Of a stretch of DNA of 64,000 bases, positions 28,814 through 40,583 are shown one piece after another; the stretch's first letter is position 1; each line of letters starts with the position of its first letter. A model generated the notes under the pieces. It did not search any database, was not told the origin of the DNA, and worked only from the letters and a program-made list of their open reading frames with translations. The DNA comes from Lysobacter capsici (GTDB taxonomy: Bacteria; Pseudomonadota; Gammaproteobacteria; Xanthomonadales; Xanthomonadaceae), in NCBI RefSeq assembly GCF_014779555.2, contig NZ_CP094357.1:3472001-3536000 (forward strand), in the 5' to 3' direction. The translations under genes were made by a program, and so were the position numbers.

Positions 28814-28898
28814 GTCATCCCCGCGAAGGCGGGGATCCAGAGACTTCAGAGCCATGCCGCGGTGAAGCCCTGGATCCCCGCCTTCGCGGGGATGACGG
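28814..28898. repeat. Inverted pair of GTCATCCCCGCGAAGGCGGG palindromes
   Basis: GTCATCCCCGCGAAGGCGGG at 28814 and its complement ending in GATGACG at about 28898 face each other across the centre; each half is itself a palindrome. The same family is present at 15476 and 38886. Confidence 0.85.
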
Positions 28899-29240: not shown

Positions 29241-29332
29241 CTCCCGCTTCCCAACTCCCGACTCCCGACTCCCGACTCCCTACTCCCTACTCCCTACTCC
29301 CGACTCCCTACTCCCGATTCCCGATTCCCGCC
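29241..29332 (+). repeat. Heptamer repeat tract (CTCCCGA/CTCCCTA)
   Basis: About 12 tandem units of a seven-base word, CTCCCGA alternating with CTCCCTA and later TTCCCGA, end 38 bases before the stop of the giant autotransporter gene. Such tracts vary in unit number by slippage, but this one lies outside the reading frame. Confidence 0.85.
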
Positions 29333-29370
29333 ACCCGGGCGCGGCCCAAAAGCCGCGCCCGGCACTTCGA

Positions 29371-32300
29371 TCAGTACTTCTTCTCAAGATTGATCATGAA
29401 GCTGTTGTCGTCGTCGTTGCCGCTGCCGAACAGGCCGCGGTATTCGAAACGCAGGACCCAGTCGCGCTCGGTCTGCAGGATCGCGCCGAGGCCGAACACG
29501 AAGCGGTTGCGGTCCAGGCCGTCGATGCGGGCGCGGTAGAACGGGCCGCCGACCATGTCGGCATAGCTCATCGTGGCGAAGCTGTCGTCCTGGAAGTCGT
29601 GCTGGTATTCCAGGCGCAGCTGCGGCGCGAACGTGCCCCAGCGGACCGGGTAGCTGTAGTCCATGCGCAGGCCCAGGCTGGTGGTGGTCGTGTCGATGTC
29701 CTGGTCGCGATAGTTCAGCACGTACTGCGCGTCGCCGCGTTCGGTGTAGCCGTCCAGGCGCGCGCGGGCGACGTCCAGGCGGGCATACGGGGAAATCCGC
29801 AGGCGGTCGCGCTGGTAGTCGGCGCCGGCCGAGATCGAGACGAACCACTGATTGCCGTCGCGCGAGCCGGTGACCATGCCGCCGGTGTCGGTGACGAAGC
29901 GGCGCGAGTCGAACGACAGCCATTGGTAACCCAGCAGACCATCGAGATAGAAACTCTTGCCCGGGTGGTAGCTGGCGTACAGCACCGCGCTGTAGCCGTG
30001 GGCCTTGCTGCGGCTGCCGTGCTGGCCGACTTCGGTGTCGTCGCGGCCGTAGCCGATGCCGCCGCCCAACGCGAAGTCGTCGCGCAGGCGGTAGTCGGCG
30101 CCGGCGCTGATGCCGGTGGTCTCGAAGTCGATGCCGCTCGCGCCGCCGCTGCGGCCGTCGCGGTTACCGCTGTTCAAGGTACCGCCGGTCCACAGGCCGT
30201 AACGCGAGCCCGTGCCCTGCACCGGCGGCTTGGACTCGATCGCGGCGCGTTCGTCGCCGAGCATCGGCTGACGGCAGTCGTTGCCCGGGGTGCGCGGCGC
30301 GTCGTCGCGGCAACGCGGGTCGATCGAGAAGCTCAGGCCGTTGTCGAAGCGCGCGCCCTCTTCGCCGCCGCCGTGCAGGCCTTCCAGACGCTGCTGGAAG
30401 TTGCCGATCTGGGTGGTGGCGAAGCGACGCGTGGCCGAGGTCTGCGCCGACAGCACGCCGAGCACTTCGGCGTCCTTGGACGGATCGCTGCGCGGCATGA
30501 CTTCGACTTCGATCGTCGCCACCGCCGAGGTGGCGAAGGCGTTGTTGAGGGTGAAGCTGGCGACCGCGATGCCGGAGTAGCCGATCACCGGGGTGTAGGT
30601 CAGCTGATAGCTGCCGCCCGAGCCGCTGACCGCCGCCGTGCCCGACGATGCCGGGGTCAGCGAGACCAGGTTCGCGCCGGTGAACGGACCGCCGGTGGCG
30701 CCGGCGACCAGGTCGACGGTGATGGTCGCGCCGGCGACCGTGCGCACCCGCCGCGACTGCGCGACCGGCACCGCGTTGACGGTGATGGTCGAGGTGATCG
30801 GCGCGGACGGACCGAAGGCGTTGTTCAAGGTGTAGGTCAGCGCGATCGCGCCGACGGTGGTGGCCGCGGGCGTGTAGACGATCTGGGTGCCCTGCACCAC
30901 CGCGGTGCCCGAGCTCGGCGGATTGAGCAAGGTCACGCCGGTGAACGGCGAGCCGGTGGCGCCGGCGGCGGCGTCGATGGTGACCGGCTGGGTCGACAGC
31001 GTGGTCGCGGTCTGCGGCTGGCCCTGCGGAACCGGCAAGGCGTTGACCGTGATCGTGACCGTGGCCGGCGCCGAGGTGCCGCCGGGGCCGCTGGCGGTGT
31101 AGGTGAAGCTGTCGCTGCCGAAGTAGTTCGCGGCCGGCGTGTAGATCACGTCGGTGCCGCTGACCGTGGCGGTGCCGTGGGCCGGCGCGGTGCCGAGCGC
31201 GATCGAGGTGATGATGCCGGTGTCGTTGGCGGTGACATCGATCGTCACCGGCGCGTTCGACAAGGTGCTCGCGCTGTCGTCGACCGCGACCGGCACCGCG
31301 TCGGCGATGACGATCGTGTACGGCGCGGTGGTGTTGTAGCCGGCGTCGTCGGTCGAGCGGATGTTGGCGGTGTAGCTGCCGGCGGTGGTCGGAGTGCCGC
31401 TGAGCACGCCGGCCGAGCTGAAGCTCAGACCGATCGGCAGGTTGCCCGAGACGATCGAATAACTGTACGGGGCGATGCCGCCGCTGCTGCTCAGGCTCTG
31501 GTTGTAGGCCACGCCGACCGTGCCGCCCGGCAACGTCGCCGGCGCGATCGTGATGATCGCCGGGTCGATGGTGAAGGTGTAGACCTTCGACGCGGTCTGA
31601 CCGTTGCTGTCGGTGGACCGCACGGTCACGCTGAAGTTGCCGTCCGAGCGCGGGATGCCGGAGAACGCGCCGGCCGAGCTGAAGCTCATGCCGATCGGCA
31701 ACGCGCCGCTGAGCAGCGAGTAGCTGTACGGCGCGACGCCGCCGGTGCTGCTGAGGCTGGCGTTGTAGGCGACCGCGGCGGTGCCGTTGGGCAGGGTCGG
31801 CGGATCGATCGCGATGGCCGGGGTGGCGACCACGATGGTGTAGTTCTGCTGTAGGGCGAACGGCGCGCCGGCGCCGGTGCTCGAATCGAGCACGCGCACC
31901 GCGATGTTGTAGTTGCCCGGAACCGTCGGCGTGCCGCTGAGCACGCCGGCCGAACTGAAGCTCACGCCCACCGGCAACGAACCGGCGGCCAGGCTGAAGC
32001 TGTACGGCGCCGAGCCGCCGCTGGCGGCGAAGTTGATGGTCGAGGCGACGCCGTAGTTCATCGGCAGGTTGCCCGGCGCCGGAGTCATCGCCAGGGTCGG
32101 CGCGCCCACCGTCAGGGTGAAGATCTGGCCCTGGGTGAACGGGCCATTGCCGGTGCTGCTGTCGGTCGCGCTGGCGTTGAGGCTGAAGCTGCCGGCCGCG
32201 GTCGGCGTGCCGCTGACGGTGACGCTGTCGGCGGTGGTGCCGGTGACGCTCAGGCCGCCCGGCAGGCCGGCCACGTTGAAGCCGGTGTACGGCGAGGTGC

Positions 32301-35300
32301 CGCCGGCCCAGGTGAAGGTCTGGGTGTAGGCGGCGCCGACCTGCGCGGTCAACGGACCTGAGGCGGTCACGGTGATGGTCGGGTTGCCGACCGTGATCGT
32401 GACCGTCGCCGGAGCCGAGGTGCCGGCCACGTTGGTCGCGGTGTAGGTGAAGCTGTCGGGACCGGCGTAACCGGCGGTCGGCGTGTAGGTGATCGTGGTG
32501 CCGCTGGCCGTCGCGGTGCCGTGCGCGGGCGCGGCGGCGACCGCCACCGAGGCCGGAATGCCGGCGGTGATGTTCAAGGTGATCGGATTGGCGGTGCTGT
32601 TGAAGGCGACCGTGGCCGAGACCGGATTGGCGACCGGGACGATGTCGTTGACCTGCAGCGCATAAGTCTGCGGCGCCGAGGTGTACGGGCCGGTGCCGGT
32701 GCTGCTGTCGGTCGCGCGCAGGCTGAAGCTGTAGCTGCCCGGCGCGGTCGGCGTGCCCGAGATCACACCGGCGCTGCTGACGCTGAGGCCCGGCGGCAAG
32801 CTGCCGGCGCTGACCGCGTAGGTGTACGGCGCGGTGCCGCCGGTGGCGGCGTTGACGGTGGCGCTATACGGGTTGGTCACCGTCGCCGCGGCCAGGGTGG
32901 TCGGCGGCAGGATCACCGTCGAGGCCGCGATGGTCACGCTGTAGGCGCGCGAACCGGTGTACGGGCCGCTGCCGGTGCTGCTGTCGGTCGCGGTGATGGT
33001 GAAGTTGAAGGTGCCGCCCGCGCTCGGCGTGCCGCTGACGGTGCCGTTGCTGGCCAGGCTGAGGCCGGCCGGCAAGGCGCCGGCGGTGATCGCGAAGGTA
33101 TAGCCCGCGGTGCCGCCCGACGCGGTCACGGTCTGGCTGTAGGCCTGGGCCACGCCGCCGCCCGGCAGGGTCGCCGGGCTGACCACGATCGTCGCAGCGC
33201 TGACGGTCAGGGAGTAAGCACGCGAACCGCTTTGCACATTGGCGTCGCTCGCGGTCACGGTGAAGTTGAAGGTGCCGCCCGCGGTCGGCGTGCCGGCAAC
33301 GGTGCCGGCGCTGCTCAGGCTCACGCCGGGCGGCAAGGCGCCGGCGGTGACCGCGAAGGTGTACGCGCCGATACCGCCGCTGGCGCTCAAGGTCTGGCTG
33401 TAGGCGGTCGCGACCTGCGCACCCGGCAAGGTGGGCGGTGCGATCACGATGGTCGGCGCGGCCACCTGCATGACGTAGTTCTGGGTACGTGCGAACGGAG
33501 CGCCCGTACCGGTGGAACTGTCGCGCGCCCGCACCGAGAAGGTGAACAAGCCAGTCACGGACGGCGTGCCCGAGAGCACGCCGGTGTTCGCGTCCAGGCT
33601 CAGGCCGGCCGGCAATGCACCCGCCGACACGCTGTAGTTGTAGGGCGCGGTGCCGCCGCCGGCGACGAAGGTCTGGCTGTAGGCGGCGCCGTAGCTCGCG
33701 TTGAGCGTGCCGGCCGCGGGCGTCAGGGTCAGGGTCGGCGCGCTGACCGTCAGGGTGAACGCCTGCCCGACCGTGAACGGGCCGTTGCCGGTGCTGCTGT
33801 CGGTGGCGCTGGCATTGAGGGCGAAGCTGCCGGCCGCGCTCGGCGTGCCGCTGACGGTCGCGCTGTTGGCGGTGGTACCGGTGATCGACAGGCCCGCCGG
33901 CAAGCCGGTGACCGCGAAGCCGCTGAACGGCGAGGTGCCGCCGGTCCAGGTGAAGGTCTGGGTGTAGGCGACGCCGATCTGCGCGGTCAGCGGGCCGGAC
34001 GCGGACACCGTGATCGTCGGCGCGGTCACCGTGATCGTGACCGTGGCCGGCGCCGAGGTACCGGCGCTGTTGGTCGCGGTGTAGGTGAAGCTGTCGGGAC
34101 CGGCGTAACCGGCGGTCGGGGTGTAGGTGATGGTGGCGCCGGTCGCCGTCGCGGTGCCATGCGCGGCCGCCGTGCCGATCGCCACCGAGGTCGGAATGCC
34201 GCCGGTGATGTTCAAGGTGATCGGATTGGCGGCGCTGTTGTAAGCGACCGTGGCCGAGACCGGATTGGCGACCGGCGGGATGTTGACGACCTGCAAGGTG
34301 TAGCCGCGCGGGGCCGAACTGTACGCGCCGCTGCCGGTGCTGCTGTCGGTCGCGGTCACGGCGAAGTTGAAGGTGCCCGGGGCGGTCGGCGTGCCCGACA
34401 GCGTGCCCGTGCTGCTCAGGCTCATGCCGGGCGGCAAGGCGCCCGCGCTGAGGGCGTAGGTGTACGGCGCGGTGCCGCCGCTGGCGGGGTTGAGATTGGC
34501 GCTGTACGCGACCGCGACGGTGGCGGGAGCGAAGCTGGTCGCCGGCAGCAGCACGGTCGGCGGCGCGATCACCAGCGCATAGGCGCGCGCACCGGTGTGC
34601 GGCGCGCCGGTACCGGTGCTGCTGCCGGTCGCGGTGACGGTGAAGTTGAAGGTGCCGCCGGCGGTCGGCGTCCCGCTCAGGGCGCCGGCGCTGCTCAGGG
34701 TCAGACCGGCCGGCAAGGCGCCCGCGGTGATCGCATAGGTGTACGGCGCGATGCCGCCGCTGGCGGTGATCGCCTGGCTGTAAGCGGCCGCGACCGTGCC
34801 GTTGGGCAAGGTGGTCGGCGCGATCAGCGTGACCGGCGGCGCCACCACCAGGCTGTAGGCGCGGGTGCCGAAGAAGCTGTTGGCGTCGGTGGCGCGGACG
34901 GTGAAGTTGAAGGTGCCGGCCGCGGTCGGGGTGCCGATCAGGGCGCCGCTGGTGGTGTTGAGGCTCAGGCCGGCCGGCAGCGCGCCGGCGGTGATGGCGA
35001 AGGTGTACGGCGCGGTGCCGCCGCCGCCGGTGAAGGTCTGGCTGTAGGCGACGCCGACGGTGGCGCCGGGGATGGTGGCCGGGTTGACGACGATGGTGGG
35101 TTCGAGCGCGACGGTGACGTTATACGTCTTGATACCGAAGGCGATCGCGGGAACGCCCGGGCCCAGATCGCTGTCGTCGACCGACTTGACGGTGAAGCTG
35201 TAGTTGCCCGTGGTGGTCGGCGTGCCGGTGATCGCGCCGCCGGCGCTCAGGCTCAAGCCAGGCGGCAGCGCCCCGCTGTTGATCGTGTAGGTATACGGCG

Positions 35301-36060
35301 CATTGCCGCCGGTGCTGGTGAGCTGGGCCGAATACGGATAGTTGCGGGTCATCGCCGGCAACGGGTCCGGGCCGATGACCGGCTGATTGTTCGGGATGGT
35401 GATCTGGTACGACTTCACCACGCTGATCGCGGTCGGCGTGGTCGAATCGGTCACGGTGATCGCGATCGGGAAATTGCCACGCTGCCGCACCGTGCCGCTG
35501 AAGGTGCCGTTGCTGAAGTTCAGACCGTTCGGCAGGGCGCCGCTGGTCCGGACATAGGTATAGGGCCCGACGCCCCCGGTGGTGGTCATGGTCTGGCTGT
35601 AAGCCACGCCCAGGGCGGGATTGATCGTCGCCGGACTGACCGTGAGCGGGCTGACGCCCGGCGCGATCGTCACGTTGACCGTGATGTCGCCGCCGTTGCC
35701 GTCGGGCACGATGAACGTGTCGCTGAGCGCGCTGTCGCCGTTATGGGTATAGGTGAGCGTCTGCACGCTCTGGGCGACCGTCTGGACGGCGGCGGAGCCG
35801 TGCGGGGTCGGGTACGTAGCCACGGCCAGGCCGAAGTTGGCCGGTCCGTCGCAGGTACTCACGTCGATCGTCTGGTTGCCGCCGTTGGCGACCGACATGG
35901 TGAGCACAGGGCAGAACGCCGAGGGTCCCGCCGCGGCCGACCCGGCCCATAGGGCTATCAGTCCGCATAGCGCGAACAAGCCGGAGCGAAGTACGGTGTG
36001 CAGGCGCGAGACGAAAGAACCGCCCGCATGGCGCGCTGACTGCTGTTGCATGTTGGTCAT
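29371..36060 (-). CDS. Giant Ig-repeat autotransporter-like surface protein
   Basis: About 2,229 residues (ATG 36060, or ATG 36051 which has GGGG spaced better). A signal peptide (SGLFALCGLIALWAGSAAAG) and a short head domain are followed by 14 putative Ig (He_PIG) modules, each about 85-92 residues with the pattern Y-S-Q-T, GG.APYTY, G-ALP-G-L, SGTPT.G, plus five cadherin/Big-like modules (HGTATATG, YTPTAGYAG, PDSFTYTATN). The last 280 or so residues form an autotransporter beta-barrel: GISAGADYRLRDDFALGGGI, YLDGLLGYQWLSFDSRR, then alternating strands ending in FMINLEKKY. It should be exported and display the repeats at the cell surface, as adhesin or matrix protein. It is transcribed divergently from the collar-protein operon. 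Confidence 0.88.
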   Translation of the reverse strand: MTNMQQQSARHAGGSFVSRLHTVLRSGLFALCGLIALWAGSAAAGPSAFCPVLTMSVANGGNQTIDVSTCDGPANFGLAVATYPTPHGSAAVQTVAQSVQTLTYTHNGDSALSDTFIVPDGNGGDITVNVTIAPGVSPLTVSPATINPALGVAYSQTMTTTGGVGPYTYVRTSGALPNGLNFSNGTFSGTVRQRGNFPIAITVTDSTTPTAISVVKSYQITIPNNQPVIGPDPLPAMTRNYPYSAQLTSTGGNAPYTYTINSGALPPGLSLSAGGAITGTPTTTGNYSFTVKSVDDSDLGPGVPAIAFGIKTYNVTVALEPTIVVNPATIPGATVGVAYSQTFTGGGGTAPYTFAITAGALPAGLSLNTTSGALIGTPTAAGTFNFTVRATDANSFFGTRAYSLVVAPPVTLIAPTTLPNGTVAAAYSQAITASGGIAPYTYAITAGALPAGLTLSSAGALSGTPTAGGTFNFTVTATGSSTGTGAPHTGARAYALVIAPPTVLLPATSFAPATVAVAYSANLNPASGGTAPYTYALSAGALPPGMSLSSTGTLSGTPTAPGTFNFAVTATDSSTGSGAYSSAPRGYTLQVVNIPPVANPVSATVAYNSAANPITLNITGGIPTSVAIGTAAAHGTATATGATITYTPTAGYAGPDSFTYTATNSAGTSAPATVTITVTAPTITVSASGPLTAQIGVAYTQTFTWTGGTSPFSGFAVTGLPAGLSITGTTANSATVSGTPSAAGSFALNASATDSSTGNGPFTVGQAFTLTVSAPTLTLTPAAGTLNASYGAAYSQTFVAGGGTAPYNYSVSAGALPAGLSLDANTGVLSGTPSVTGLFTFSVRARDSSTGTGAPFARTQNYVMQVAAPTIVIAPPTLPGAQVATAYSQTLSASGGIGAYTFAVTAGALPPGVSLSSAGTVAGTPTAGGTFNFTVTASDANVQSGSRAYSLTVSAATIVVSPATLPGGGVAQAYSQTVTASGGTAGYTFAITAGALPAGLSLASNGTVSGTPSAGGTFNFTITATDSSTGSGPYTGSRAYSVTIAASTVILPPTTLAAATVTNPYSATVNAATGGTAPYTYAVSAGSLPPGLSVSSAGVISGTPTAPGSYSFSLRATDSSTGTGPYTSAPQTYALQVNDIVPVANPVSATVAFNSTANPITLNITAGIPASVAVAAAPAHGTATASGTTITYTPTAGYAGPDSFTYTATNVAGTSAPATVTITVGNPTITVTASGPLTAQVGAAYTQTFTWAGGTSPYTGFNVAGLPGGLSVTGTTADSVTVSGTPTAAGSFSLNASATDSSTGNGPFTQGQIFTLTVGAPTLAMTPAPGNLPMNYGVASTINFAASGGSAPYSFSLAAGSLPVGVSFSSAGVLSGTPTVPGNYNIAVRVLDSSTGAGAPFALQQNYTIVVATPAIAIDPPTLPNGTAAVAYNASLSSTGGVAPYSYSLLSGALPIGMSFSSAGAFSGIPRSDGNFSVTVRSTDSNGQTASKVYTFTIDPAIITIAPATLPGGTVGVAYNQSLSSSGGIAPYSYSIVSGNLPIGLSFSSAGVLSGTPTTAGSYTANIRSTDDAGYNTTAPYTIVIADAVPVAVDDSASTLSNAPVTIDVTANDTGIITSIALGTAPAHGTATVSGTDVIYTPAANYFGSDSFTYTASGPGGTSAPATVTITVNALPVPQGQPQTATTLSTQPVTIDAAAGATGSPFTGVTLLNPPSSGTAVVQGTQIVYTPAATTVGAIALTYTLNNAFGPSAPITSTITVNAVPVAQSRRVRTVAGATITVDLVAGATGGPFTGANLVSLTPASSGTAAVSGSGGSYQLTYTPVIGYSGIAVASFTLNNAFATSAVATIEVEVMPRSDPSKDAEVLGVLSAQTSATRRFATTQIGNFQQRLEGLHGGGEEGARFDNGLSFSIDPRCRDDAPRTPGNDCRQPMLGDERAAIESKPPVQGTGSRYGLWTGGTLNSGNRDGRSGGASGIDFETTGISAGADYRLRDDFALGGGIGYGRDDTEVGQHGSRSKAHGYSAVLYASYHPGKSFYLDGLLGYQWLSFDSRRFVTDTGGMVTGSRDGNQWFVSISAGADYQRDRLRISPYARLDVARARLDGYTERGDAQYVLNYRDQDIDTTTTSLGLRMDYSYPVRWGTFAPQLRLEYQHDFQDDSFATMSYADMVGGPFYRARIDGLDRNRFVFGLGAILQTERDWVLRFEYRGLFGSGNDDDNSFMINLEKKY

Positions 36061-36368
36061 CCCCTGACGGGGCGGCCCCGGGCGTCGTGCCCGGCTCCGC
36101 CACCGTGTACCCAATGATCGATCTGGTCCTGGTCTGCATGCCGCGTGCCCCTGGCATGCCCCTTTCCATGACCTGATACGCAGTTCGGCAGGAAAACCGG
36201 CCGCCTTCGCCGCCGATCTGCGTTAAGCAAGATCATGGCGCTCACGCGCCATGCCTGGCCCGGTCGGACCGGCCCGTTCCCGCCGTGCGCGGACGGGGCG
36301 TGCGGCGGAGGCACGGTATTTCATCCGGAAGCGCGCACGGCGCCCGGAAACATCCTCTGGGGGAAGAG
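36061..36368. other. Divergent promoter region, autotransporter / collar operon
   Basis: 308 bases between two divergent start codons. A hairpin CATGGCG-CTCACG-CGCCATG lies at 36236-36255. CTGGGGGAAGAG just before 36369 is a fair ribosome site for the first collar gene. No gene is visible. Shared control of the adhesin and the collar operon is possible. Confidence 0.5.
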
Positions 36369-36899
36369 ATGACAGAAGTATTCCTGGGACAGATCATTAC
36401 CGTCGGGTTCGGTTTCACGCCCAAGGGCTTTGCCCCGTGCAACGGCCAACTCATGCCGATCGCGCAGAACCAAGCGCTGTTTTCGTTGCTGGGCACCATG
36501 TACGGCGGCAACGGCACGACGAACTTCGCATTGCCGAACATGCAAAGCCGTACGCCGGTGGGGGCCGGCGCGTCGGCCGACGGAAGCTGGAATCCGTCGC
36601 CGTATCAGTACGGCGAAACCGGCGGCGTCGAAAACGTCACCCTGCTGACACCGCAGCTGCCGGCCCACAACCACAACCTGTGCGGCGTCACCACCGCCAC
36701 CAACGCACGCAACCCGACCAGCAATTTCTACGGAACCACCTCGACCGCGATCTATGCGAACACCGGGAAGGCCCAGGTGGCGTTGTCGCCGGCGACCATC
36801 GGTCAGACCGGCAGCACCACGCCGCATCCGAACCTGCAGCCGTATTGCGCGATCAACTTCTGCATCGCCTTGCAAGGCATCTACCCGTCGCGCAACTGA
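36369..36899 (+). CDS. Phage tail collar domain protein 1 (microcystin-dependent type)
   Basis: 176 residues of the tail-collar/microcystin-dependent protein family. The N-terminal half MTEVFLGQIITVGFGFTPKG then APCNGQLMPI, LFSLLGTMYGGNGTTNFALP is the conserved collar; then LPAHNHNLCG and the C-terminal INFCIALQGIYPSRN. These proteins lack a signal peptide. In phages the domain joins tail fibres to the tail; in bacteria stand-alone copies of unknown function are often in gene triplets. It is first in the operon. Confidence 0.88.
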   Translation: MTEVFLGQIITVGFGFTPKGFAPCNGQLMPIAQNQALFSLLGTMYGGNGTTNFALPNMQSRTPVGAGASADGSWNPSPYQYGETGGVENVTLLTPQLPAHNHNLCGVTTATNARNPTSNFYGTTSTAIYANTGKAQVALSPATIGQTGSTTPHPNLQPYCAINFCIALQGIYPSRN

Positions 36900-36976
36900 G
36901 CGCCGGGCGGGCAACAGACAGAAGGTCGCGCGAGGCGGCCACACCTTTCAGAATTCAAGGTTCCGGAGTAACTACT

Positions 36977-37507
36977 ATGAGTGAGCCCTTTGTCGGCGAA
37001 ATCCGACTGTTCGGCTTCGGCCGCGTTCCCAACGGCTGGTTCGCCTGCGATGGCTCGTTGCAGTCCATCGCCGAATACCAAGTCCTGTTCACGCTGATCG
37101 GCACGACCTACGGCGGCGACGGCATCAGCACCTTCGCCGTACCCGATCTGCGCAGCCGGGTACCGATTCACCAGGGCACCGGACCCGGCCTGAGCAACTA
37201 CGTGATCGGCCAGGCGTCCGGCACGGAGAGCGTCACCCTCACCCAGCAACAGATGCCGGCGCATGGCCACACCCTGCTGGCGACGACCGAACTCGCCGAC
37301 GCGACCCAGATTGGCGCCGGCGTCGAGCTCGGCGCGCTCAACGGCGACACCATGTACGTCACCGACACCACCGATTCCACGTTTGTGCCGATGAATCTGG
37401 CCGCGTTGACGACCAGCGGCGGCAGCCAACCGCACAACAACCTCATGCCGACATTGACGGCGCTGTTCTGCATTGCCTGGGCCGGCATCTTCCCCCAGCA
37501 GAACTGA
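36977..37507 (+). CDS. Phage tail collar domain protein 2
   Basis: 176 residues, a diverged paralogue of its neighbours: MSEPFVGEIRLFGFGRVPNG, WFACDGSLQSI, TLIGTTYGGDGISTFAVPDL, MPAHGHTLL, and the end FCIAWAGIFPQQN. It has the shortest identity to the others in the middle 85 residues, the part expected to differ. GGAG precedes the ATG by 8 bases. The gap from copy 1 is 77 bases. Confidence 0.87.
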   Translation: MSEPFVGEIRLFGFGRVPNGWFACDGSLQSIAEYQVLFTLIGTTYGGDGISTFAVPDLRSRVPIHQGTGPGLSNYVIGQASGTESVTLTQQQMPAHGHTLLATTELADATQIGAGVELGALNGDTMYVTDTTDSTFVPMNLAALTTSGGSQPHNNLMPTLTALFCIAWAGIFPQQN

Positions 37508-37570
37508 TCCCATTCGCCACGCCCTGCGCCGCGTCGCGCGAGCGCATGGCAGATTCAAGAGGACATCGTC

Positions 37571-38116
37571 ATGACCGAACCTTTCATCGGCCAGATCCAG
37601 ATTTTCGGCTTCAACTTCGCTCCACGCGGCTGGGCCGCCTGCAACGGCGCAACGCTGACGATCCAGCAGAACACCGCCTTGTTCGCCCTGCTGGGCACTC
37701 AGTACGGCGGCAACGGCCAGAGCACGTTCCAGTTGCCGAACTTCGCCAACCGCGCGGTCGACAGTGCCACGCTACCCACCACACCTCCCCCGCCTGGTCT
37801 GACTCAGCGCTCCATGGGCGAGACTTTCGGCTCCAACTCGGTCACCCTGACCACCCAGGAAATGCCGAGCCACACCCACGGCGTGAACATCTCCAACCAA
37901 CAGGTCGCCACCAAGAAAGCCGCTTCCCCCAGCGCCGGCAACGCGCTGGGCTCGCCCAACGCGAACGCGTTCGTAGCCGGCACCGCCGCCAACGCGCAAT
38001 TCTCGCCGACCCTGGTCCTGCCCACCGGCAACAACCAGCCGCACGAAAATCGTCAGCCCTATCTCGCGATGAACTTCTGCATCGCGCTGGAAGGCATCTT
38101 CCCCTCGTTCCCATAA
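37571..38116 (+). CDS. Phage tail collar domain protein 3
   Basis: 181 residues, the third member: MTEPFIGQIQIFGFNFAPRG, WAACNGATLTI, ALLGTQYGGNGQSTFQLPNF, MPSHTHGVNI and the end MNFCIALEGIFPSFP. The middle is again the least conserved. The gap from copy 2 is 63 bases; the next gene begins 3 bases after its stop, so all four genes are probably one transcript. Confidence 0.88.
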   Translation: MTEPFIGQIQIFGFNFAPRGWAACNGATLTIQQNTALFALLGTQYGGNGQSTFQLPNFANRAVDSATLPTTPPPPGLTQRSMGETFGSNSVTLTTQEMPSHTHGVNISNQQVATKKAASPSAGNALGSPNANAFVAGTAANAQFSPTLVLPTGNNQPHENRQPYLAMNFCIALEGIFPSFP

Positions 38117-38119
38117 ACC

Positions 38120-38680
38120 TTGCACGCAAACCCGACCACCGCGCCGCTGTCGTTCCCCGAGGAGCGCGGCGGCACGTTCGACCTTCCCGCGTCGCTATGG
38201 CGACGCGGGATCGGCCTGCGCGCGGCGCATAGCCAGGACATCGCCTGGCTGCGTCTGCTCTATCGGCAATTGCGCGGCGTCGAATTCGCGCCGATGGGCT
38301 GGCCCGAGCCGGCGCTGCATGCCTTTCTCGACCAGCAGTTCGCGCTGCAGCACATCCACTACACGCGCCACTATCAGGGCGTCGACTTCCTCATCATCGA
38401 ACGCGACGGCCAGCCGGTCGGACGCTTCTATCTGCAGACCAATCCGCCCGATCATCTGCTGGTCGACATCAGCCTGGGCGACGGCGCGCGCGGGCAAGGC
38501 ATCGGCACCGCGCTGATCGGATGGGCGCAGCAGCAGGCGCAGGCCGCGCGCTGCGGCATGCGCCTGCATGTCGAGCACGGCAATCAGGATGCGCTGCGCC
38601 TGTATCGCCGGCTGGGCTTCGGCGTGGTCGAGGCGATGCCGACGCATGCGCTGATGCGCTGGCGGCCGGAGTTCGGTTGA
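38120..38680 (+). CDS. GNAT family N-acetyltransferase
   Basis: 186 residues from a TTG start 3 bases after the third collar gene (no ATG is available until the fold has begun). The GNAT signature is the acetyl-CoA binding loop DGARGQGIGTALIGWAQQQA; the strand VDFLIIERDGQPVGRFYLQ and the end LYRRLGFGVVEAMPTH complete the fold. Its position directly behind the three collar proteins suggests it acetylates one of them or a related substrate, but this is context only. Confidence 0.82.
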   Translation: MHANPTTAPLSFPEERGGTFDLPASLWRRGIGLRAAHSQDIAWLRLLYRQLRGVEFAPMGWPEPALHAFLDQQFALQHIHYTRHYQGVDFLIIERDGQPVGRFYLQTNPPDHLLVDISLGDGARGQGIGTALIGWAQQQAQAARCGMRLHVEHGNQDALRLYRRLGFGVVEAMPTHALMRWRPEFG

Positions 38681-38996
38681 TTCGAACTGGCTCGATTGAG
38701 CCGGTTTGATTGAGCCGGCTTGATTCGGGCTGACTTGGTTGAACCCGGCTCGATTGAGTCGGGCTCGATTGAGTCGGGTTTAATCGAATCGGGCTTGATC
38801 CGGCGCGAGCGCCGCATCGTCAGCCGTGATCGCATTTCGATGGGCGGCCGGGGATGCATGCGCGCAGCTGCCGCGATTTTTTGCCCGTCATTCCCGCGAA
38901 GGCGGGAATCCAGGACTTCACCCAGGCATGACTGTGAAGTCTCTGGAGACTCGGCTCCGCCGAAGTAAAGCAACGCACGCCTTCGCATGAATGACG
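38680..38996. repeat. Imperfect tandem repeats and palindrome
   Basis: From 38680 to about 38805 a 13-18 base word with the core GATTGAGTCGGG (or GATTGAGCCGG) recurs about eight times. GTCATTCCCGCGAAGGCGGG at 38886 is one arm of the dispersed palindrome family; a degenerate partner lies near 38980. No gene is seen here. Confidence 0.7.
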
Positions 38997-39039
38997 AGCA
39001 AGCAACGAGTCGCCGCGCGCGCCGCTCGACGCAAATCGA

Positions 39040-39330
39040 TCAGTTGAAAATCGCCTGATACAAAAACCCCTCGCGCTCGCGCGCGACCGGAACCAGGAAA
39101 ATACCGACCTCGCCGATCGACGCATGCCGCATGACATAGGTCTGCTGCGGAAACAGGAACGCCGAGGCATTGCGGAACAGCAGCGAGAACGGCGCCCGCA
39201 CCGCCTGCTGCGGCTGCGTGCTCAGCGCGCGCGCTTCGACCAGCACGAACGGTACTTCGCCGTCGTTGAGCACGGCCGAGTAGGTCTCGTTTACGTGCGA
39301 GCTGAAGTGATCGAGCGTCAACAGTTCCAT
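39040..39330 (-). CDS. DUF6916-like small protein
   Basis: 96 residues: MELLTLDHFSSHVNETYSAV, VPFVLVEARALS, RAPFSLLFRNASAFLFPQQT, YVMRHASIGEVGIFLVPVAR and YQAIFN at the end. The strand pattern and F-S-L-L-F-R, G-x-x-x-F-L-V-P-V, Y-x-A-I-F-N resemble DUF6916. I recall such genes beside tail-collar genes in related bacteria, which would tie it to the preceding operon, but it is transcribed the other way. Confidence 0.7.
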   Translation of the reverse strand: MELLTLDHFSSHVNETYSAVLNDGEVPFVLVEARALSTQPQQAVRAPFSLLFRNASAFLFPQQTYVMRHASIGEVGIFLVPVAREREGFLYQAIFN

Positions 39331-40031
39331 CGCGGGGCCTCCCCAAGCCGAGGACGCATCGTCGTCGCGCGCGGCCTGCGATGCAAGCCCCATGACAGGT
39401 TTTTTGCACGAATGCGTGGCGGATGGACGTTCCATCCGGCCCGAACGGGGCCACGACCGGCGGCGAGGCGATCGGTTCGATCTGTCCGGGACCGGGACGA
39501 CGCGGCCGTCCCACTGTGATCGCCCGGCAATGCGCAAACCGCGGCAACCAACACCGCACACCATCGCCGGCTCCGGCCGCCCCGCCGCAAGCCCAGTTGC
39601 GGCGGGACAACGGCCGGAGCCGCCAACAGCGCGGGCTTCCCTGCCCGCTTCGGCTTTCATCACTGACGGAGATGAAAGGCGTCCAAACCTTGCGTGGCGC
39701 CATGAGGCGTCACCTGACCCGCATGGCGGTCCGTGCCGGCCGCGGCGCCCGCCTGGCGAAACGCCGGCGAACGCCGCGAACCGGTCGACACCGGGGATCG
39801 CGCAATCCCGTCCCGGACGGCGCACGTCGCGCCGGCCCGATCGGCCAGGCCATCACCACGACGAGATGGCCGGCGGACCGGCCGCGCCATGCGCGCGGTC
39901 CGATCCGGGTACTGCGTATCGGCGCGCGCCTGTGCGCGGCCGTCCCCTACCCCTTTCCGAGGGGTACCGGTAGCGTCGCCGCGATCCGTGCGGCGACGGT
40001 GAAACCTGCGGCACGAGCCGCGTCGGGCGGG
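39331..40031. other. Gene-free gap in Ig/collar locus
   Basis: 700 bases where the open frames on both strands have arginine/proline-rich, non-protein-like composition. Two hairpins stand out: CTTTCATC / GATGAAAG at about 39654-39678, and TACCCCT / AGGGGTA at 39948-39966. The second lies just past the end of the following minus-strand gene. Confidence 0.45.
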
Positions 40032-40583
40032 TTACAAAACGGCGGCCGCGGTCGCCGGCAGCACGCGGTCGCGGATCGCGGTCACCGCCACCACCGCTTC
40101 GGCGCTGTCCTGACCGGACTGCACGCGATAGGTGTAGGTGTCGACGCCTTCGAAGCCCGGATCGGGGATGTAGGTCGCACGACCGTCCCGAATCCGCACT
40201 TCGCCGTGCCGCGGCGCCTGCGCCAGGCTGTAATGCATGGCCGCGCCGTTGCCGATCGAGCCGCGCAAGGCGACGGTCGACGCGGCGCCGTCCAGGCTGT
40301 GGGTGACCAGATCGGCCGCGGCGAGCGGCTCGTAACGGCGCAGGCCCTGGATGTCGTTCTGGATCGACCGCGCCAGCGCCTGACGCCCGCGCTCGGGCGC
40401 GACCGCCTGTTCGAAACGCAAGCGCGCCTGGTGGTGCGGCGAAATCTCCTGGATCGAAGATCGCAGCGGCTGCGAAGCCGGACTGCGAGTCTGGCTCACG
40501 TTCGGGGCACCGGACGCACCGACGGCGGACGCGATCAGCGCCAGACTCAGTACGAGGGGCCCCTGGATACTCTTGTACGGCAT
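40032..40583 (-). CDS. Small exported protein with one Ig/cadherin-like module
   Basis: 183 residues from the ATG at 40583 (GGAG 6 bases before it). A signal peptide (IQGPLVLSLALIASAVGASG) precedes a low-complexity helical stretch and a C-terminal module HYSLAQAPRHGEVRIRDGRA, YIPDPGFEGVDTYTYRVQSG, which has the same HG, YTP, GYAG-D-FTYT pattern as the cadherin/Big-like modules of the giant autotransporter. It is probably secreted or periplasmic and may bind or join that surface system. Confidence 0.75.
   Translation of the reverse strand: MPYKSIQGPLVLSLALIASAVGASGAPNVSQTRSPASQPLRSSIQEISPHHQARLRFEQAVAPERGRQALARSIQNDIQGLRRYEPLAAADLVTHSLDGAASTVALRGSIGNGAAMHYSLAQAPRHGEVRIRDGRATYIPDPGFEGVDTYTYRVQSGQDSAEAVVAVTAIRDRVLPATAAAVL

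Follow-up and report, generated by a model that had tools for sequence, protein, structure and literature searches.

Why three consecutive genes for phage tail collar proteins should stand in a bacterial chromosome beside an acetyltransferase gene and a giant autotransporter gene is the question raised by a stretch of 64,000 nucleotides of Lysobacter capsici (RefSeq:NZ_CP094357.1, positions 3,472,001 to 3,536,000), hereafter called the window. An initial annotation had read the locus as a possible surface system, in which the collar proteins, modified by the acetyltransferase, would act together with the autotransporter. Our analysis revealed a widespread chromosomal module, not part of a phage and present across phyla, of which this locus is one copy. 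That reading held insofar as a single conserved module unites collars, GNAT acetyltransferase, DUF6916 protein and a surface-type giant, whereas the autotransporter proved to be one of several interchangeable giants. The gene set had been correctly described, an autotransporter diverging from three collars and a GNAT, followed by a DUF6916 gene and a small Big_9 protein, and was located in the window as follows.

29371..36060, minus strand: giant immunoglobulin (Ig)-repeat autotransporter, 2,229 amino acids (aa), with 14 He_PIG and 5 Big_9 stretches and a PF03797 beta-domain (Pfam, E 2e-55)
36061..36368, no strand: divergent intergenic region of 308 bp between the autotransporter and collar A (from the coordinates)
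36369..36899, plus strand: collar subunit A, 176 aa, leaderless, with HxH motif (PF07484, E 2e-24; alignment; tree)
36977..37507, plus strand: collar subunit B, 176 aa, leaderless, with HxH motif (PF07484, E 1e-24; alignment; tree)
37571..38116, plus strand: collar subunit C, 181 aa, leaderless, with HxH motif (PF07484, E 6e-26; alignment; tree; AlphaFold model)
38120..38680, plus strand: module-specific GNAT with a TTG start, 3 bp after collar C, with acetyl-CoA-loop motif (PF00583, E 3e-14; alignment)
39040..39330, minus strand: DUF6916 partner protein, 96 aa, without signal peptide (PF21880, E 4e-29)
40032..40583, minus strand: small exported-type protein with a single Big_9 module (Big_9, E 6e-9)

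The three collars scored 86–91 bits against PF07484, the curated cut-off of which is 24, and the alignment placed an HxH motif in each of them. The GNAT matched PF00583 and carried R-x-x-G-x-G, the acetyl-CoA loop motif of GNATs, and the autotransporter had a signal-peptide-like N-terminus (by reading) and the C-terminal beta-barrel (PF03797) of type Va. In the genome of 6.24 Mb, PF07484 matched these three genes only and PF21880 this one only. A Pfam scan of the ten flanking genes revealed seven ordinary chromosomal matches (rhodanese, S30AE, DUF1993, MerR, ADH, MFS and glycosyltransferase), three genes without match, and no phage gene, structural and lysis genes included, as the initial annotation had noted; the locus therefore lacks what would mark a prophage or tailocin.

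To look for the same set in relatives had been proposed, and its co-occurrence was borne out in 198 genomes of the window's GTDB family, which are related and not independent, so that the Fisher value for the coincidence overstates the number of events. PF07484 was found in 61 of them, 51 with at least three matches and 10 with one. A profile of the module GNAT, built from 43 proteins and used at a threshold of 144 bits, matched 51 genomes (52 places), the next match being at 92 bits. The two sets of 51 genomes were identical and the remaining 147 genomes had neither part, a coincidence far beyond chance. DUF6916 was present in 49 genomes, namely 48 of the 51 with a trio and one other (G175), and in two of the 48 it was not beside the trio, lying about 14 kb off in G089 and on another contig in G061. 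It was also noticed that in G175 a DUF6916 open reading frame (ORF) running into other sequence (L086:9931–10608) was followed by an autotransporter, collars and GNAT not being seen, which looks like a collapsed module. Among the 51 triplet regions, an autotransporter-type passenger diverged from collar A in 38 (the barrel also being matched in 33), another giant preceded the collars on the same strand in 7, 2 contigs were truncated, and 4 had neither adjacent.

Neither a gene order unique to this genome nor a random scatter of the parts was encountered, the set recurring in the family, the phylum and six phyla. In the phylum, 44 of 398 genomes had DUF6916, and a collar match was found in 43 of these versus 57 of the 354 genomes free of DUF6916; G267 had DUF6916 without a collar match, and in G247 the collars lay about 46 kb from it. 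The 46 phylum regions around DUF6916, altered in gene order and strand and in several cases on short contigs, contained a called collar in 42, a GNAT match (34–225 bits) in 39 and an ORF longer than 1,300 aa in 24; in L141, a collar of the genome-wide match list escaped the gene caller. For other phyla, one collar motif was scanned over species genomes and the best 80 of at least 591 matches, corresponding to 79 loci, were taken. Since these are the closest matches to the conserved trio, the following shares are not those of all collars: within 3 kb, GNAT, DUF6916 and an ORF of at least 1,000 aa were found in 55, 52 and 48 of the 78 loci with called collars, and in 40, 39 and 43 of the 52 loci with at least 5 kb on both sides, 32 of which had all three. 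Counts up to 3 kb versus 3–9 kb from the collars were 55 versus 2 for GNAT, 68 versus 2 for DUF6916 and 50 versus 13 for giants, corresponding to densities 45, 56 and 6 times higher near the collars. GNAT and collars shared a strand in 50 of 51 family loci, all 24 phylum loci and 45 of 53 other countable loci.

GNAT, DUF6916 and a giant all stood beside the trio in six phyla, 1) Pseudomonadota, 2) Acidobacteriota (L187, L214, L229), 3) Chloroflexota (L188), 4) Bacteroidota (L189, L223, L235), 5) Bacillota (L212, L236), and 6) Actinomycetota (L213, L241), and partial sets were found in Planctomycetota (L186) and Verrucomicrobiota (L220, L221). NCBI annotation of the Ruegeria TM1040 megaplasmid lists a choice-of-anchor giant, three tail fiber proteins, a hypothetical protein, a GNAT and a 97-aa hypothetical protein, and NCBI records of Paenibacillus, Deinococcus and Hymenobacter show partial sets. 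Part of this spread may be due to transfer of the whole module. In Acaryochloris, the collar genes AM1_3688 to 3690, the acetyltransferase gene AM1_3686 and the hypothetical genes AM1_3684 and AM1_3687 appear jointly, all with negative ratios, in the accessible part of the changed-gene tables of PMC11633204, where AM1_3685 was not found; that collars, acetyltransferase and neighbours change together was counted in favour of one module.

The giants varied from lineage to lineage. Among 24 scanned, Big_9 was found in 11, Cadherin_4 in 8, Cadherin_5 in 7 and He_PIG in 5, together with a type IX secretion system (T9SS) tail (PF18962) in 4, SLH in 3, an autotransporter barrel in 2, RTX repeats in 2 and IPTL-CTERM in 2; some other giants begin with motifs that we take to be LEPR-XLL-like. 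The giant is thus a surface-type partner with export features that differ between lineages (autotransporter, RTX, T9SS, S-layer, IPTL-CTERM), and collars, GNAT and DUF6916 are the constant parts. The window giant resembles type V autotransporter adhesins with He_PIG/Big_9 repeats in having the barrel and the repeats, but differs from them in being tied to a collar, GNAT and DUF6916 set that elsewhere accompanies other export types.

A tree of 237 collars from 79 complete trios (23 from Pseudomonadota, 12 Acidobacteriota, 5 Chloroflexota, 5 Bacteroidota, 4 Bacillota, 3 Verrucomicrobiota, 3 Actinomycetota and 24 unnamed, the family being represented by only ten chosen loci and the window) revealed how the three subunits are related. 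In none of the 237 cases was the nearest neighbour a paralogue of the same locus, and in 212 it was the collar at the same position of another locus; 20 of the remaining 25 were exchanges between positions 1 and 2. The position labels required 26 changes on the tree, compared with at least 99 in 40 within-locus shuffles. These results indicate that A, B and C are old, distinct lines that have been retained together, and the module with its trio is well supported.

Natural fusions joined the parts in several loci. A single ORF of L161 consists of a position-2-type collar, a position-3-type collar and a GNAT, and a mixed 1/2-type collar is encoded separately next to this ORF; in L219 and L224 (Paenibacillus) a position-2-type collar is fused to one of mixed 1/2 type, with the position-3 type next; and in L147 GNAT and DUF6916 are fused. 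The identical family distribution and the collar-collar-GNAT fusion support the view, already put forward by the initial annotation, that collars and GNAT act together. In L243, three collars with as many HxH motifs lie in one ORF, between a Sec-like leader and a tail that by reading is PEP-CTERM-like. The model positions matched along this chain by the hidden Markov model (HMM) were 136–173, 6–100, 142–173, 4–101, 141–173 and 3–102, a circular permutation, in keeping with a pseudo-threefold unit whose copies complete one another through their C-terminal strands. L244 combines three collars with RTX repeats; just one C-terminal segment passed the HMM threshold, and that the chain also begins with such a segment, and so is circularly permuted, was recognised by reading.

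T4 gp12 is a homotrimer encoded by one gene and carried on a phage, and its HxH motif has a metal role; the window differs in having three paralogues and no phage. The collar family profile matched the gp12 receptor-binding domain (PDB:1ocy, E 5e-6) and a long tail fibre (PDB:8kec, E 5e-9) over the collar domain, and the HxH motif is shared (212 of the 237 tree collars), so that both the sequence relation and the motif of the knitted gp12-type trimer are present. A title cited in PMC4949626 names a knitted trimeric metal-binding fold. In the closest precedent, virophage DSLV2, three consecutive PF07484 proteins were purified together as a heterotrimer of 1:1:1 stoichiometry, which binds Synechococcus cells (PMC12724248, J Virol 2025). 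The window shares with DSLV2, as described there, three consecutive PF07484 genes on the same strand and subunits that group by position. It differs in that the third DSLV2 gene adjoins a minor capsid gene, whereas in the window the GNAT follows, and in that DSLV2 is viral; in the accessible part of that paper the word acetyltransferase is absent, and neither "bacterial genomes" nor "chromosom" occurs in its main text. It is likely that the three collars form one 1:1:1 gp12-like heterotrimer, a single heterotrimer rather than a filament being the most likely form.

In a collection of 2.9 million viral contigs, 77 loci were related to the collars and 13 of these had at least two full collars or a GNAT/DUF6916 match. 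When eight trios of this collection were placed in the tree, 1) the nine collars of three small viral contigs (L267, L269, L270) clustered together, apart from the bacterial A, B and C lines and with position-2 collars as nearest bacterial relatives, 2) the first two collars of L277 fell beside the collars that hold the same positions in L120 and in the window's family, and 3) those of L272, L274, L275 and L307 were scattered. One contig, L271 (IMGVR_UViG_2848685470_000004), carried nine collar ORFs on 5.5 kb, as if three trios stood in a row, with one pair of ORFs overlapping.

The best PDB matches of the GNAT profile frequently included N-terminal acetyltransferases, RimI and NAA50 among them, and other GNATs matched too. 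The module GNAT nevertheless forms a conserved subfamily of its own, differing in this from RimI and NAA50, and an identity as RimI was rejected, the TIGR01575 score being 35.2 against a cut-off of 86.4 bits. Of the collars in GNAT loci, 353 started flush with the domain, 3 had longer called starts without a leader, and 47 truncated calls were not judged; such flush starts fit an enzyme acting on the native N-terminus. N-terminal acetylation of the collars by the GNAT is a tentative proposal that has some support and that we rate somewhat below an even chance.

From these data we infer the following scheme. Folding together, subunits A, B and C would yield one knitted trimer of 1:1:1 composition resembling that of T4 gp12, in which the three HxH motifs probably hold a closing metal ion. 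Its surface ligand, a glycan or lipopolysaccharide, would be bound by the variable stretch that separates the N-terminal collar domain from the C-terminal strand. Acetylation of the subunits by the dedicated GNAT would take place in the cytoplasm, with the Ser, Thr or Ala exposed by Met removal as the most likely site. DUF6916, which has Tat-type paralogues in some lineages, would be a small factor for assembly or escort. The completed receptor-binding tip would act at the cell surface, with the giant (here the autotransporter) as stalk or anchor. For the complete scheme, a co-folded and GNAT-acetylated trio tip, assisted by DUF6916 and placed at the surface on the giant, we regard the chances as evenly balanced.

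That the collars act at the cell surface is, taken by itself, probable. Counted for it were the giants, the leader- or tail-bearing relatives of the collars, the Tat-like DUF6916 paralogues, and a collar protein (YP_165745.1) found in the Ruegeria pomeroyi exoproteome, as given in the accessible part of PMC4949626. In loci without a GNAT of at least 60 bits, 63 collars were flush, 18 calls were truncated and 15 were flagged as leader-like, 5 of which were set aside as phage-type N-termini; the Sec-like leaders, assigned by reading, were those of 10 collars in 5 loci (L249, L254, L255, L256, L261), with a weaker GNAT match in L254. Tat-like leaders were flagged by a strict pattern on 9 of 154 DUF6916 proteins, and on more by reading. 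The DUF6916 profile found nothing in the PDB better than E 1.3.

A number of observations weigh against the scheme of an acetylated surface tip. Since no judged collar of the GNAT loci had a signal peptide and a GNAT is expected to be cytoplasmic, a surface location would require a further export step. RhiA of the Rhizobium rhiABC operon, which has no recognised collar domain, served as a cytoplasmic marker (PMC2275737). HxH was not found in 25 of the 237 tree collars, nor, by reading, in the RTX-bearing chain of L244. The AlphaFold2 monomer of collar C (mean predicted local distance difference test score 73) was confident over about residues 11–60 only, with block means of 90–95 there and 52–75 over residues 61–180, and with a C-terminal strand at 168–172; low confidence beyond residue 60 is expected if the rest needs partners. 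The PDB matches of the GNAT lie mainly over the general acetyl-CoA half. At residue 2, Ser, Ala or Thr stood in 89% of 269 collars and in 37% of 1,031 other genes, yet collars lacking a GNAT reached 81% (n = 37); the enrichment is therefore suggestive, giving no specific sign of N-terminal acetylation, and was rejected as a GNAT-specific signature. Besides the selection of closest matches mentioned above, 20 of the 52 well-flanked loci were without at least one of GNAT, DUF6916 and giant, and several Paenibacillus loci consisted of collars and a giant only.

The missing leaders could also be explained if collar trimer, GNAT and DUF6916 stay inside as a cytoplasmic assembly complex, a dedicated chaperone or modification station that holds, acetylates or times the export of the giant. 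The fusions of GNAT to collars and to DUF6916 would suit such a complex, as would the DUF6916 proteins themselves, most of which have no signal (27 of the 154 flagged by a crude pattern). The Sec-like leaders and PEP-CTERM-like or RTX features of related collars and the exoproteome find speak against it, and the giants, differing in sequence and export features, are unlikely to be a common client; we consider this explanation unlikely. Still less likely is a role of the collars as receptor-binding effectors or decoys, either set free or attached to the surface and directed for example against phages or neighbours, with the giant merely a co-regulated adhesin. Their relation to phage receptor-binding tips and the binding of bacterial cells by the virophage trio would agree with such a role, whereas giants are about six times denser beside collars than 3–9 kb away, none of the 5,027 PADLOC defence models matched any of the six window proteins at E 1e-3, and no defence-type family occurred among the ten flanking genes. 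On the last two results, a known anti-phage system was rejected.

A prophage or tailocin remnant has some features in its favour, since PHROGs classes the collars as tail proteins, the GNAT matches phage acetyltransferase families at E 7e-11, and some collar loci elsewhere resemble prophages by reading (L257, L262, L248, L253). In the window, however, no phage gene was found in the scanned flanks, DUF6916 and GNAT had no match in 50,697 phage records, and collar B had its best phage hit, at 40% identity, in Microbacterium phage tail proteins; moreover, the three subunit lines are kept across phyla, which makes a remnant highly improbable. A chance neighbourhood in one lineage is refuted by the co-occurrence in the family, the phylum and other phyla, and its probability is negligible. 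The surface tip thus remains our preferred reading, in which we infer surface action, export and the acetylated site.

The known collar systems differ from the module. In rhiABC, a rhizosphere-expressed operon of Rhizobium (PMC4149787), RhiB has a phage tail collar domain (PMC13133039); this resembles the module, but the accessible parts of these papers show one collar protein and mention no module GNAT or DUF6916. No description of the module was found among the matches listed from open full-text papers, a scope that leaves out bioRxiv and most subscription papers, and the term "DUF6916" occurred in none of the open full-text papers searched; the module is thus undescribed in the open literature searched, and the virophage provides a known precedent for the heterotrimer. 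Many chromosomal collar-type genes carry a phage tail fibre annotation in NCBI records, under which they pass unnoticed. It is conceivable, though we rate it slightly below an even chance, that many phyla possess a chromosomal heterotrimer of phage-tail-tip type, with three fixed subunits and its own acetyltransferase and DUF6916, carried on a giant Ig/cadherin stalk by the export route of the lineage, and that this general adhesion or recognition organelle goes by the name "tail fiber protein". If so, a surface recognition system would extend from Lysobacter-like bacteria to Paenibacillus, Bacteroidota and Acidobacteriota.

The small Big_9 protein, which the initial annotation had included in the system, was matched in six of nine same-genus loci (window included), with no match at this place in other family loci. 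It was rejected as a part of the module and is probably a genus-specific neighbour, so that the conserved set has four kinds of part, giant, collars, GNAT and DUF6916. Additional neighbours were noticed elsewhere. Proteins of 208–259 aa, leader-bearing by reading, stand between collar C and GNAT (L059:13089–13715, L240:10533–11312, L129:10803–11453, L229:10616–11305) and are a possible extra exported subunit, and a protein of 405–430 aa occupies the same place in alphaproteobacteria (L263:9607–10824, L168:10626–11918); six of these extra neighbours were tested and had no Pfam match. An asparagine-synthase-like gene adjoins the trio at L121:5212–7116, and a lasso-peptide B2 gene and a PqqD gene lie near the Deinococcus trio (L265). 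A promoter scan of the window gave nothing above chance, the sole promoter-like match beginning inside collar A. Finally, the window contains an inverted pair of 76-nt repeats (28823–28898 and 38885–38960, 84% complementary), perhaps an intergenic repeat family, with one copy between the GNAT and DUF6916 genes, and short tandem repeats of the CTCCCGA type (29241–29338) just past the 3′ end of the autotransporter gene.

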